Origin: a virus
IMG/VR virus record: IMGVR_UViG_3300031999_000225
Span: 1 to 21,292 of that record
Reading direction: 5' to 3' (one strand)
DNA length: 21,292 nt
Under the pieces are notes generated by a model. That model searched no databases. It was given only the letters and a program-made list of their open reading frames with translations, and was not told the origin of the DNA. Positions 567 through 14,417 of the stretch are shown here, one piece after another. The stretch's first letter is position 1, and the number at the start of each line of letters is the position of its first letter. Made by a program: the position numbers and the translations under genes.

Positions 567-607
567 GGCTAATGTTAACCCCTAAGCCTCCGATTAAAGA
601 GGCTTAG
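567..607 (-). ncRNA. Two-hairpin intergenic RNA element, copy 1
   Basis: Read on the minus strand, this spacer holds a 9-bp stem (599-607 with 582-590, 8-base loop) and, after one base, a 5-bp stem with a tetraloop (576-580 with 567-571, one G-U pair). The first stem begins 8 bases after the stop codon of the 182-aa gene. A second copy follows ardA at 1191-1232 with the same geometry and base-pair-preserving differences. There is no U-tract, so a simple intrinsic terminator is unlikely; an RNA processing, stability or regulatory role fits better. Confidence 0.6.
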
Positions 608-615
608 AGATAACA

Positions 616-1164
616 CTATGCCAATGCTAATTGATATTGTTTTGGTAGAGTCCTCTCCCAATAATCAGCGTTAGTCTTAGCCTCCTCAATAGCAAAATCC
701 TCATAGCCTATAAACCCTCCAACAGAGTCCAACATTTCCCCCTCTTTGTCCTCTATCGTATAGCCATAGCAATTTCCGACTAAATAATGGTCGTATTCCT
801 TGACTTCATGCTCTAGCATTTTGATAGGATCAACAATGCCCTCATGCTTTGCGTCTCTTTTTGATATATAGATATAGCCGACTTGCCCACTATCCCAACC
901 ACAATTAAAAGGGCTAGTCTTCATGGTTATCCCTCCATGATCGTATAAATACAGAGGCAAATAAAAAATGTTGTCTTTTTCCTCTGTTAAAAATTCCTCA
1001 AACTCTTCGGGGTCTCTAAATGTATGCTTATCCCCCAAATCATAACGACCATGAAAGCAAACCATTTTCCCAAGGTTATCCCACTCCCTTGGGTTCATTG
1101 GTTCGTTATCGTGCCAAATATTAATGTTTAGCCCCTTATACTCAAAACTTTTTACATTTTCCAT
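616..1164 (-). CDS. Conserved phage/plasmid protein of unknown function (WDSGQVG family)
   Basis: A 182-aa acidic protein. Recognisable blocks are NINIWHDNEPMNPREWDNLG (residues 13-32), YLPLYLYDHGGITM (68-81), CGWDSGQVGYIYISK (88-102) and EYDHYLVGNCYGYTIED (123-139). This architecture recurs in uncharacterised proteins of phages and conjugative plasmids, from memory often near antirestriction genes. I chose the ATG at 1164 because GGAGAG lies 4 bases upstream; longer readings lack a better site. It lies directly downstream of ardA and is separated from it by a hairpin element. A role in host-defence evasion is an inference from its neighbour only. Confidence 0.8.
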   Translation of the reverse strand: MENVKSFEYKGLNINIWHDNEPMNPREWDNLGKMVCFHGRYDLGDKHTFRDPEEFEEFLTEEKDNIFYLPLYLYDHGGITMKTSPFNCGWDSGQVGYIYISKRDAKHEGIVDPIKMLEHEVKEYDHYLVGNCYGYTIEDKEGEMLDSVGGFIGYEDFAIEEAKTNADYWERTLPKQYQLALA

Positions 1165-1190
1165 AATTCTCTCCATTATGTTATCAAATT

Positions 1191-1232
1191 GGCTAAAGAT
1201 AGCCCACAAGCCTACTCAATAAATAGACTTGT
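1191..1232 (-). ncRNA. Two-hairpin intergenic RNA element, copy 2
   Basis: On the minus strand a 9-bp stem with one U-G pair (1224-1232 with 1206-1214, 9-base loop) is followed after one base by a perfect 5-bp stem with a tetraloop (1200-1204 with 1191-1195). It begins 8 bases after the ardA stop. Compared with copy 1 at 567-607, paired positions differ on both sides and pairing is kept, while the spacing is identical. Similarity also extends over the two stop codons (GGCATAG in both). Confidence 0.6.
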
Positions 1233-4759: not shown

Positions 4760-4980
4760 CCCCAGCACAAAAAGAGATATTCCTGATAGTAGACGAGTAC
4801 TGGCGTAACTACGGCTTTGGTCCTACTATTGATGATGTTATGCGTCTAACGGGTGCAAGAGGTAGAGGCAACGTGGCCCGTAAGATGCAAATCCTTATTG
4901 AAATAGGGGTATGCAAAGGGGTAAAGGGGCGTGCAAGATCTATCCGCCCAGCTGGGTTAAAGGTAAGATCAGTTGAGTAA
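4756..4980 (+). CDS. LexA-type winged-helix DNA-binding protein
   Basis: A 74-aa protein, MTPAQKEIFLIVDEYWRNYG, followed by FGPTIDDVMRLTGARGRGNV and ending in a wing with GRARSIRPAG. It matches the layout of the LexA N-terminal domain: helix 1 with T-x-x-Q-K/R-E, the P-(T/S)-(I/L)-x-x-(V/I) helix 2, a recognition helix near residues 34-47, and a GRAR beta wing. There is no C-terminal protease domain, so it is a stand-alone DNA binder, not a cleavable repressor. It sits immediately before terL and overlaps it by 8 bases. It could regulate phage transcription or take part in terminase DNA recognition. Confidence 0.7.
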   Translation: MTPAQKEIFLIVDEYWRNYGFGPTIDDVMRLTGARGRGNVARKMQILIEIGVCKGVKGRARSIRPAGLKVRSVE

Positions 4981-6466
4981 AGATATCATAGACCTTATTA
5001 AGATGTTGCCTGAGGCGGAGCAAGCTCCTATTTGGGAGGAGGTTCGTAACCTAGCCTCAGCGGAAACAAGAGAACAAGGCACTACGGACTTTATGAAGTT
5101 TGTCACAACCATGTGGCCTGGTTTTATACATGGAAGACACCATGAACTTATGGCTAGGAAGTTTGAAGAGATAGCAGATGGAAAAATTAAACGTCTTATC
5201 ATTAACATGCCACCTCGTCACACAAAGTCTGAGTTTGCCTCTTTTATGTTGCCTGCTTGGTTCTTAGGAAGGTTCCCAGGAAAGAAGATTATTCAGTGTT
5301 CTAATACAGCAGAACTTGCAGTTGGGTTTGGACGAAAGGTAAGAAATCTGGTAGACTCTGAAGTCTATAGCGAAATATTCCCAAACGTTGCCCTTCGTTC
5401 TGACTCTAAAGCTGCTGGTCGCTGGAGTACTAATGCTAATGGTGAGTACTTTGCTATTGGTGTGGGTGGTACTGTCACAGGTAAGGGAGCTGATCTACTC
5501 ATCATTGATGACCCGCATTCGGAACAGGAAGCAGCGTTAGCGGCTGGAGATCCAACCGTATACGATAAGGTCTTTGAGTGGTATACTTCTGGGCCTAGGC
5601 AGCGTTTACAACCAGGTGGCACAATTGTAGTAGTTATGACCCGTTGGGCTAAACGAGACCTCACTGGTAAGATTTTACAAGGTATGGTTGATCGTGATGG
5701 TGATGAGTGGGAGATTATTGAATTACCTGCTATACTACCATCTGAGAAACCTTTATGGCCAGAGTTTTGGTCTTATGAAGAATTAAGTAAACTTCGTGAA
5801 GAGTTGCCTTTAAGTAAATGGCAAGCTCAGTACCAACAAGACCCAACATCTGAAGAAGGCGCTTTAATTAAGCGTGAGTGGTGGCAAGTATGGGAAAAAG
5901 AACATCCACCACAATGTCAATTTATTATTCAGTCATGGGATACCGCCTTTACAAAGTCTGAGCGTGCCGACTATTCTGCATGTACAACTTGGGGTGTCTT
6001 TTATAAAGACGAGAATGAGAATGACCCACATATCATACTCCTTGACGCACTTAAAGAGCGTATGGAGTTTCCAGAATTAAAGCAAAGAGCTTTAGAGTAT
6101 TATCAAGATTGGCAACCCGATGCATTTATTGTGGAAGCCAAAGCATCAGGTGCGCCTTTAATTTTTGAACTAAGACGGATGGGAATCCCAGTTCAAGAGT
6201 TTACACCCACTCGTGGAAACGATAAGATTTCCAGAGTAAATTCGGTAAGCGATTTGTTCGCCTCTGGGAAGGTGTGGGCGCCAAGAAAAAGGTGGGCGGA
6301 GGAGGTCATTGAAGAACTCGCTGCATTCCCTAACTCAGACCATGACGACTTGGTTGACTCAAGCACACAAGCACTTATTCGTTTTAGACGTGGAGGCTTC
6401 GTAACTCTGCCTTCAGACGAACCCGATGAACCTCGTGAATTTAGAAGGAAGACTGGCTATTATTAA
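4973..6466 (+). CDS. terL: Terminase large subunit
   Basis: A 497-aa packaging motor and nuclease. The ATPase half has the Walker A-like loop MPPRHTKSE (residues 79-87), Walker B LLIIDDP (175-181) and coupling motif VVVMTRW (219-225). The RNase H-like nuclease half has SWDTAF (D323), FIVEAKASG (E388) and SDHDDLVDS (D458/D459), the expected acidic metal ligands. It pumps DNA through the portal into the prohead and cuts concatemers. The start is probably TTG at 4973, with weak AAGG upstream; ATG at codon 11 is an alternative. All catalytic residues are present. Confidence 0.96.
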   Translation: MSKDIIDLIKMLPEAEQAPIWEEVRNLASAETREQGTTDFMKFVTTMWPGFIHGRHHELMARKFEEIADGKIKRLIINMPPRHTKSEFASFMLPAWFLGRFPGKKIIQCSNTAELAVGFGRKVRNLVDSEVYSEIFPNVALRSDSKAAGRWSTNANGEYFAIGVGGTVTGKGADLLIIDDPHSEQEAALAAGDPTVYDKVFEWYTSGPRQRLQPGGTIVVVMTRWAKRDLTGKILQGMVDRDGDEWEIIELPAILPSEKPLWPEFWSYEELSKLREELPLSKWQAQYQQDPTSEEGALIKREWWQVWEKEHPPQCQFIIQSWDTAFTKSERADYSACTTWGVFYKDENENDPHIILLDALKERMEFPELKQRALEYYQDWQPDAFIVEAKASGAPLIFELRRMGIPVQEFTPTRGNDKISRVNSVSDLFASGKVWAPRKRWAEEVIEELAAFPNSDHDDLVDSSTQALIRFRRGGFVTLPSDEPDEPREFRRKTGYY

Positions 6467-7001
6467 TCAAAAGTACTGGCTATACGAGTCAGCCATTTCA
6501 AAAAAACAATGTGAGCTTATTTTAGAAGAGGCTAATTGGTCTCAAGAACATAATGCTGAATTTATGCGTGATGGTCAATCTGTCTCTAATGAAGATATTA
6601 GAACAACCAAAGTAACATTTATGCCAACCTATTCAGTAATAGGATGTATTTTAAATACCCATCTATTAAACATTAATGCTTACCAATGGAATTTTGATAT
6701 TAGTAGAATACAAGATATACAAATAGGACACTATGCCGAAGGCGGTCATTATGATTGGCATGTAGATGTGACTGTACCAGATGAAAATAACATACAAAGA
6801 AAGTTATCAGCTGTACTTATGTTATCAGACCCAGATGACTACGAAGGTGGGTTGTTAGAAATACAAGACACAGAAATACCCAAATTAAAGCAAGGAACGC
6901 TCATAGTCTTTCCTTCTTTTATGAAACATAGGGTTACCAATGTTACAAAAGGAAATCGTTTTACAGCGGTTGCATGGGCTGTAGGACCCGCATTTAGGTA
7001 G
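6426..7001 (+). CDS. 2-oxoglutarate/Fe(II)-dependent dioxygenase (prolyl-hydroxylase-like)
   Basis: A 191-aa protein with a double-stranded beta-helix pattern. It shows HYDWHVDV (H112, D114), the distal histidine FPSFMKHRVTNV (H168) and the co-substrate arginine GNRFTAVAW (R178); together these form the HxD...H iron triad and the 2-oxoglutarate site. GGLLEIQD (141-148) is the usual strand between them. The family (PKHD-type / P4Hc) hydroxylates protein side chains or repairs and modifies nucleic acids; the substrate cannot be read from sequence. The ATG at 6426 overlaps terL by 41 bases, and a later non-ATG start near codon 12 is possible, since GAAGGA lies at 6444-6449. It sits between terL and portal. 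Confidence 0.85.
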   Translation: MNLVNLEGRLAIINQKYWLYESAISKKQCELILEEANWSQEHNAEFMRDGQSVSNEDIRTTKVTFMPTYSVIGCILNTHLLNINAYQWNFDISRIQDIQIGHYAEGGHYDWHVDVTVPDENNIQRKLSAVLMLSDPDDYEGGLLEIQDTEIPKLKQGTLIVFPSFMKHRVTNVTKGNRFTAVAWAVGPAFR

Positions 7002-13370: not shown

Positions 13371-13853
13371 ATGTCAAGAACAACATTCTCAGGCCCAGTT
13401 AAATCAGGCACAAATAGATACACTCCATACAAAAACGTTGGTACAACAGTATTAACACAACAAACTCCATTTACTTTTGATGCAACATTAGTTCAAAGCG
13501 TAACCTTATATGTTCCAGCAGGATCTAAACTACTTAACATTTTTGTTGATGTTATTACAGCATATGATTCAGCTACATCAGCTACTTTAACTGTTGGTAA
13601 AACTGCAGCTGGTACTGAGTATGCTTCTGGTGTTAATGCTAAAACAGCAGCTCGTACAACTCCTACATTTACAGCAGCACAATTAACCAATATGCAATCA
13701 ACACCAGTTGATGTTGCAGCAAACAACGGCCAACAAGCTTCTTCAGCTCTTGTTGTTACAATAACATCAGTAGGTCAGCCTACAGCTGGTACAGGTTTTG
13801 TTACATTCCAGTACGCTCAATCTGATGACCGTGCAACATATAACACACAATAA
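13371..13853 (+). CDS. Beta-rich virion structural protein
   Basis: A 160-aa protein beginning MSRTTFSGPVKSGTNRYTPY, rich in Thr/Ala/Val/Ser. Strands such as SVTLYVPAGSKLLNIFVDVI are followed by SATLTVGKTAAGTEYASGVN. It has no Cys and few charges. The family sits after the capsid gene in related phages and is probably a head decoration or fibre component. The ATG at 13371 follows GAAGGAAAAATT; an in-frame ATG at 13341 falls in the leader stem and has no ribosome site. The gene is the first one after its own promoter and leader. Confidence 0.7.
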   Translation: MSRTTFSGPVKSGTNRYTPYKNVGTTVLTQQTPFTFDATLVQSVTLYVPAGSKLLNIFVDVITAYDSATSATLTVGKTAAGTEYASGVNAKTAARTTPTFTAAQLTNMQSTPVDVAANNGQQASSALVVTITSVGQPTAGTGFVTFQYAQSDDRATYNTQ

Positions 13854-13860
13854 TTAATCT

Positions 13861-13880
13861 AAGGGGGTTAACGCCCCCTT
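13861..13880 (+). terminator. Hairpin, possible intrinsic terminator
   Basis: A perfect 7-bp G/C-rich stem AAGGGGG/CCCCCTT (13861-13867 with 13874-13880) has a 6-base loop and is followed by GTTTAT. The T-tract is weak, so it may attenuate or protect the transcript end and not fully terminate. It lies 7 bases after the upstream stop codon. Confidence 0.6.
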
Positions 13881-13904
13881 GTTTATAACTTAAGGAGATT
13901 AATT

Positions 13905-14417
13905 ATGGGTATGCAATATGATGTAAAACAAGCGCATTTAAATTCTAGTGGGTATCTAGTTAAATATCCTGTACGTGTTAAAGGCATATCGTTTACAGGT
14001 AGTGCTTCTGCTGGAACTTTAGTAGTATTTGATACCGAAACAACTCCTGTATCAGCAAGTGTAACTTATGCACAAACTGGCACACTTGTAACAGTAACAA
14101 AAACAGCGCATGGATTAATTACTGGTGATGTTATTGGTATTCATTTTTTAACAAATGCCGGTGTTTCAGCTACTGATGGTACATATGATATTACTAAAAC
14201 AGGCGCAGATACATTTACTTTAACTGATATTAACTCACGTACTATTACTAGCACTGCAGCTGTATATACTGTAGGTAAATGGTTACTTACTTATGGGACC
14301 AACGCCGGAGATTATTTTAATAATGCACCTATTATTGCAGGTGAAGGTATAAGAGCTAGTAACGGTGTATATGCTGTTATGACAAATATAACTGCAACAC
14401 AAATAATTTACGGGTAA
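13905..14417 (+). CDS. Beta-rich virion structural protein with FCCH-like module
   Basis: A 170-aa protein starting MGMQYDVKQAHLNSSGYLVK. An internal block of about residues 50-118 (TKTAHGLITGDVIGIHFLTN, then DGTYDITKTGADTFTLTD) has the H-G-(L/Y)-x-x-G-D and T-(Y/F)-x-(I/V)-T...T-F-T-L-T pattern of small beta modules found inside phage tail and baseplate proteins. The flanking parts (residues 1-48 and 119-170) look like one split domain. This suggests an inserted module. AAGGAG lies 8 bases upstream. Likely a head or tail surface component. Confidence 0.65.
   Translation: MGMQYDVKQAHLNSSGYLVKYPVRVKGISFTGSASAGTLVVFDTETTPVSASVTYAQTGTLVTVTKTAHGLITGDVIGIHFLTNAGVSATDGTYDITKTGADTFTLTDINSRTITSTAAVYTVGKWLLTYGTNAGDYFNNAPIIAGEGIRASNGVYAVMTNITATQIIYG

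Follow-up and report, generated by a model that had tools for sequence, protein, structure and literature searches.

A family of covarying RNA elements that take in the upstream stop codon in the intercistronic spacers of phages

Two spacers on the minus strand of the virus record IMGVR_UViG_3300031999_000225 (21,292 nt; the whole record was analysed and is called the window here) are built alike, which raises the question of whether they carry a selected RNA structure and what such a structure might do. They separate three genes: the anti-restriction gene ardA (1241–1717; PF07275, E = 6.4e-22), a gene of 182 codons (616–1164) that matches no Pfam family and has distant relatives in phages, and a small gene of 59 codons (372–551) with the Shine–Dalgarno (SD) sequence GGAG. 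Copy B (1232–1191) lies downstream of ardA and copy A (607–567) downstream of the 182-codon gene. Each consists of two hairpins separated by a single G, namely CTAAGCCTCT-TTAATC-GGAGGCTTAG, G, GGTTA-ACAT-TAGCC in copy A and ACAAGTCTATT-TATTG-AGTAGGCTTGT, G, GGCTA-TCTT-TAGCC in copy B. In both copies the TAG stop codon of the upstream gene stands 8 nt before the hairpins (1243–1241 for ardA and 618–616 for the 182-codon gene), where it forms the base of the element, and the next ATG follows 15–26 nt after them. The original prediction of a duplicated two-hairpin element gave coordinates, sequences and base-pair changes that are all reproduced here: between copies A and B, stem 1 changes from C–G to A–U, from U–A to C–G and again from C–G to A–U, with an additional C–G to U–G, and hairpin 2 changes from C–G to U–G. 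A descriptor of the two hairpins finds three matches on the minus strand of the window, the best two being copies A and B (0–1 matches in shuffled sequences), and the folding z-scores of the copies are −7.1 and −6.0, respectively, with none of 200 shuffles as good. In addition, the 4 nt past the stop codon (TGTT in A, AGAT in B) pair with bases of hairpin 2 (AACA in A, ATCT in B), and this pairing contributes two further both-sided changes between the copies.

Two copies alone are thin evidence for selection on RNA structure, and a covariance model and a search for more copies had been proposed. Covariance and pattern searches (the latter as scans of viral contigs, with 31 and 67 contigs) give 89 strong copies, 72 of them distinct, on about 60 viral contigs, with E-values of 1e-14 to 1e-5 under covariance model R1; related phages thus have copies, and in these the stems are kept. 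All 89 lie between two genes, whose strand they share, and whole records hold one to three strong copies. In relatives of ardA, the element occurs twice in two loci (L002 and L003; downstream of ardA and again downstream of the gene that follows it) and ahead of ardA in two others (L004 and L005). A first degenerate pattern was discarded, as its four matches lay inside other sequence and none had the fold. The pattern used for the viral contigs, run over 84,980 bacterial and archaeal genomes, returned a single match (L056), which model R1 rejected. Rfam 15 (4227 models) gave nothing at the element in the window and six loci at a relaxed E-value, no copy was detected by blastn or model R1 in eight isolate or complete phage records including those nearest by terminase, a pattern search for close relatives via the 182-residue protein found none, and a literature search returned no prior description. 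The element, present between small genes in many uncultured phages, is a real RNA family that matches no catalogued one.

Hairpin 1 (1206–1232 in copy B and 582–607 in copy A) provides the clearest indication of the level at which selection acts. All 772 of 772 cells of its stem in the alignment are paired, including 116 G·U pairs, with no A·C and no other mismatch. Since G·U is present and A·C absent, selection acts on the sense RNA; a constraint on the DNA or on the opposite strand would produce A·C just as easily. Taken by itself, the first alignment has 66 double-change cells in comparison with 14.8 in shuffles. When stem 1, the lower stem described below and hairpin 2 are taken together, 98.1% of cells are paired and 270 are double-change cells, as against 58.8 (sd 6.1) and with 0/500 shuffles as high, although these shuffle statistics are inflated by copies related through descent. 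Common descent as the cause of the covariation is disfavoured by slide controls, by the differing pairings within single genomes and by the unrelated gene contexts. The 72 distinct copies therefore bear out the proposed selection on RNA structure.

The two-hairpin design needs revision: both hairpins can form, but the principal fold is one long hairpin into which the stop codon is built. The strongest predicted fold is a single hairpin of 20–24 bp, near-perfect with one bulge, whose base is the stop codon of the upstream gene. Its lower stem pairs strand 1, which is the stop codon plus 8 nt (TAG, AGAT and ATCT, 11 nt, 1233–1243 in copy B; TAG, TGTT and ATCT, 608–618 in copy A), with strand 2, which contains the 5′ half of the originally described hairpin 2 (G GGCTATCTTT A, 1194–1205 in copy B; G GGTTAACATT A, 570–581 in copy A). 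Outward from hairpin 1, the lower stem consists of U10·G54, C9–G55, U8·G56, a bulged C57 and A7–U58, followed by the variable pairs and, last, by stop-codon bases 3 and 2. The variable pairs are UGUU/AACA in copy A and AGAU/AUCU in copy B, and AAAU/AUUU, UUUA/UAAA, AUUA/UAAU, CAUU/AAUG and GAUU/AAUC occur in other copies. The lower stem, aligned over the 72 distinct rows, has 75 double-change cells in comparison with 12.7 (sd 3.1) by shuffling, and every slide of its register falls below 60% paired. The long hairpin is the minimum free energy (MFE) fold in 64 of 67 distinct copies, copies A and B included, with a mean energy gain of −8.5 kcal/mol for the lower stem and −4.2 kcal/mol for hairpin 2.

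Hairpin 2 (1204–1191 in copy B; 580–567 in copy A) uses the same bases as the lower stem, which makes the two forms mutually exclusive. In both copies, strand 2 can pair either with strand 1 to give the long hairpin or with strand 3, the AGCC of the 3′ arm (1191–1194 and 567–570, respectively), to give hairpin 2. The strand 1–strand 2 pairing covaries strongly, whereas the strand 2–strand 3 pairing is conserved, with strand 3 kept in all rows, and barely covaries. Hairpin 2 has one double-change cell and its support is conservation, which is partly imposed by the search patterns; copies chosen without those patterns (the window, L002–L005 and second copies in the same loci) also keep hairpin 2, most of them having been recognised by a model that itself contains it.

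The stop codon is bound closely to this fold. Among the 72 distinct copies, 71 have UAG (52) or UAA (19) at the stop position and none has UGA, a codon that ends 29% (142/489) of the other genes of the same loci (UAG, 21%). The third stop base never clashes with its partner (G·U in 42, A–U in 19 and G–C in 10 copies). In 85 of the 89 copies the stop closes an open reading frame that is 25 codons or longer or that extends past the contig edge; in the remaining copies the actual stop seems to be displaced by a few bases, with UAR kept. The spacing between stop and hairpin 1 is the same in 47 of 51 copies. Over the 40 nt that follow element-linked stops, the dLFE is −12.4, with all values below −4, in comparison with −1.5 and −0.1 for other stops. 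A stop-codon readthrough signal was considered and rejected, as many copies have a second in-frame stop within the stem (TAR-NNN-NNN-NNN-TAA).

A second sequence type shares this layout. Type 2, as distinct from the copies described so far (type 1), reads stop-GUGAUACC-hairpin 1-GAUUAUC-NNNN-GAUAAUC and occurs on about 30 contigs (a pattern scan gave 36, nearly all with this fold). Its hairpin 1 has 82 double-change cells in comparison with 26.9, and the upstream stop codon lies inside strand 1 in nearly all copies. The long hairpin is the MFE fold in 27 of 34 sequences, and its energy is near that of the two-hairpin form, from which it differs by a mean of 1.7 kcal/mol. For the lower stem of type 2, the covariation test has no power because the bases are nearly invariant.

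The original prediction had associated the element with ardA and with mobile regulatory cassettes. Neither idea is supported by the wider family: ardA accounts for just one of the roughly 90 protein clusters that flank the element on its two sides, the family of the 182-residue protein being another, and the copies of a single genome have widely different stem 1 sequences and only short stretches in common. Several clusters are found both before and after elements, the same cluster can occur with type 1 or type 2, and one cluster appears by sequence to resemble a sliding clamp. The commonest upstream neighbour is a conserved, hydrophobic peptide of about 28 residues (MTNLLKN..GFISAYCWLLLLLGF), found at 1924–2082 of locus L053 and, as 20 similar proteins, upstream of type 1. 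Downstream of nearly every copy lies a gene in the same direction, whose start passes all criteria in 67 of 74 and lacks a recognised SD in the rest. Spacers that hold an element measure 59–106 nt from stop to start (median, 72), and 68% of other co-directional pairs are separated by 30 nt or less. The inspected copies have no U-tract 3′ of the hairpin and a gene follows, which agrees with the earlier view that they are not ordinary terminators. A terminator-like hairpin (ACGGGCTTGCCCCGTTTC) lies between element and next ribosome site in one locus (L088, 3776–3820), the only such insertion seen.

What could a fold with a buried stop codon and a conserved alternative do? Our preferred reading, to which we give somewhat less than even chances, is that of a cis-acting, stop-codon-anchored RNA switch in phage operon mRNA that would act as a translational insulator. 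A terminating ribosome would cover about 11 nt, the stop codon plus 8 nt. It would therefore hide just strand 1, so that hairpin 2 would replace the lower stem with hairpin 1 staying in place. When the 11 nt of strand 1 are blocked in the computation, the lower stem falls from 7.5 to 0 pairs, hairpin 2 rises from 1.2 to 4.3 pairs and hairpin 1 is predicted to remain folded. Upon departure of the ribosome, strand 2 would return to strand 1, the ground state in which the stop codon is buried, and the long hairpin would snap shut behind the ribosome. We infer this gating of the fold by the ribosome from geometry and folding energies. The closed hairpin may then keep ribosomes that have terminated from sliding on to the start of the next gene, which would be initiated independently at its own SD site. 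Direct gating of the SD was rejected, as its predicted accessibility is equal in both states and SD strength downstream of elements shows no difference from that of other genes; any effect must thus run via re-initiation or another route. A wider formulation is possible and more doubtful: that phages carry specific bistable switches of at least two sequence types which sense translation termination between unrelated genes, with two hairpins while the ribosome is on the stop and one long hairpin when it is gone, and which may set the translation or the processing of their neighbours.

In attenuators of the trp-leader type, the choice between strand 1–strand 2 and strand 2–strand 3 pairing is set by the position of a ribosome. 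The element is predicted to face the same choice, likewise set by a ribosome, but it has neither leader peptide nor terminator, its controlling ribosome would be one terminating on an ordinary gene, and its output would not act on SD accessibility. The insulator reading is closest to that of the ribosome termination structure (RTS), a stable mRNA structure located right after the stop codon at spacers of at least 25 nt and proposed as a re-initiation insulator (Chemla et al., 2020; PMC7518266; see also PMC12548453). In a synthetic E. coli operon, structure just after the stop suppresses re-initiation (PMC7518266). The element is also unusually stable directly after the stop at spacers of at least 25 nt. 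However, an RTS is a signal in folding statistics, has no conserved sequence and is reported to be depleted within operons, whereas the element forms a distinct family with covariation and sequence conservation, is found only between operon genes of phages, and has the stop codon inside its stem and an alternative hairpin. So far, insulation by post-stop structure has been put to the test in synthetic operons, and native examples have been asked for (PMC7518266). An uncatalogued family backed by covariation supplies many natural variants of one small fold, in effect a natural mutant series, and its short repeated spacers make it directly testable how phages keep the translation of tightly packed genes apart.

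The strongest rival to the insulator reading is control by RNase III or exonucleases, because the ground state is a duplex of 20–24 bp. Such a site, cut by RNase III or blocking 3′-to-5′ exonucleases, would leave each gene with a stable message that retains its stop codon; a ribosome standing on the stop would prevent the long duplex, so cutting could be linked to translation. Early genes of phage T7 are separated by intercistronic RNase III sites, and the elements resemble sites of this type in being long hairpins that recur several times in a genome and separate small phage genes. The consistently intercistronic position, the one to three copies per record and the long one-bulge duplex, which is kept as the ground state while its sequence drifts, are all compatible with processing. 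It needs neither a stop codon at a fixed register of the stem nor a conserved alternative hairpin, however, and these are the features that set the element apart from T7-type sites. We consider processing or protection a serious rival, though a less probable one.

It is rather improbable that the element is an operator, one of whose two folds is recognised by a phage or host protein so that the genes carrying it are coordinated. Near-invariant bases amid varying stems (AUCU/GG(CU).../GCC in type 1, UGAUAC/GAUUAUC in type 2) would suit a binding site, but this invariance is largely explained by pairing in either state and is in part a product of the search patterns, the genes on either side are varied and no co-occurring factor has been identified. 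The pseudoknot in T4 gene 32 mRNA is likewise a structured element that precedes a gene in a phage message; it serves one gene, is bound by gp32, lies 67 nt upstream of the start codon and has no helix with a stop codon (PMC3014915).

A fixed H-type pseudoknot, in which strand 1 pairs with the loop of hairpin 2 so that both coexist without any switch, is improbable in its turn. The covarying columns 3–6 with 59–62 are compatible with an intact hairpin 2 of 4 bp. The pairing fits, and the avoidance of UGA favours, a helix that extends into the stop codon (columns 1–2), with which no nucleotide would be left to span the helix. Energy also strongly favours the nested hairpin (the scoring covered nested folds); since the energy fold nests the same pairs, the pseudoknot was dropped as the sole reading. 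An RNA that acts on RNA polymerase in antitermination or pausing is highly improbable: the elements share with the put RNAs of HK022 two stem-loops one nucleotide apart and often two copies per phage record, but put RNAs are about 70 nt long, lie near and downstream of early promoters, bind RNA polymerase and differ in sequence and tertiary fold (PMC9378689), whereas the elements lie between genes, directly after and built on a stop codon.

More sequence types probably exist. Three loci (L120 at about 715, L128 at about 9473 and L027 at 6443–6506) have the same layout in further sequence types, which include stop-AAGTATCAAC-hairpin-GATTGTTATTTTTAACAATC and, separately, a copy in which hairpin 2 is GGTTTGT ACTATC GCAAACC, its loop pairing with TAGT 3′ of the stop. 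Limnohabitans phage YIMV22061 (PQ492660) has a repeated structured intercistronic element of unrelated sequence on its minus strand (1225–1340 and 2240–2350), GGATAGCCCTTGC...GCGAGGGCCTTCC followed by GGGA..TCCC, and offers a cultured system for similar spacer elements. An 80-kb phage contig with both type-1 and type-2 elements (L094) also carries two tRNA genes (13800–13959). In the window, the terminase large subunit (4973–6466) is 54–60% identical to those of the Pelagibacter phages HTVC027P and HTVC023P and of phages 023Pt_psg01 and DSL-LC04, a sequence similarity that places the lineage of the window, not its host. The open reading frame adjoining the terminase gene (6426–7001) encodes a putative protein resembling 2-oxoglutarate/Fe(II) hydroxylases (HYDWHVD...HRV).
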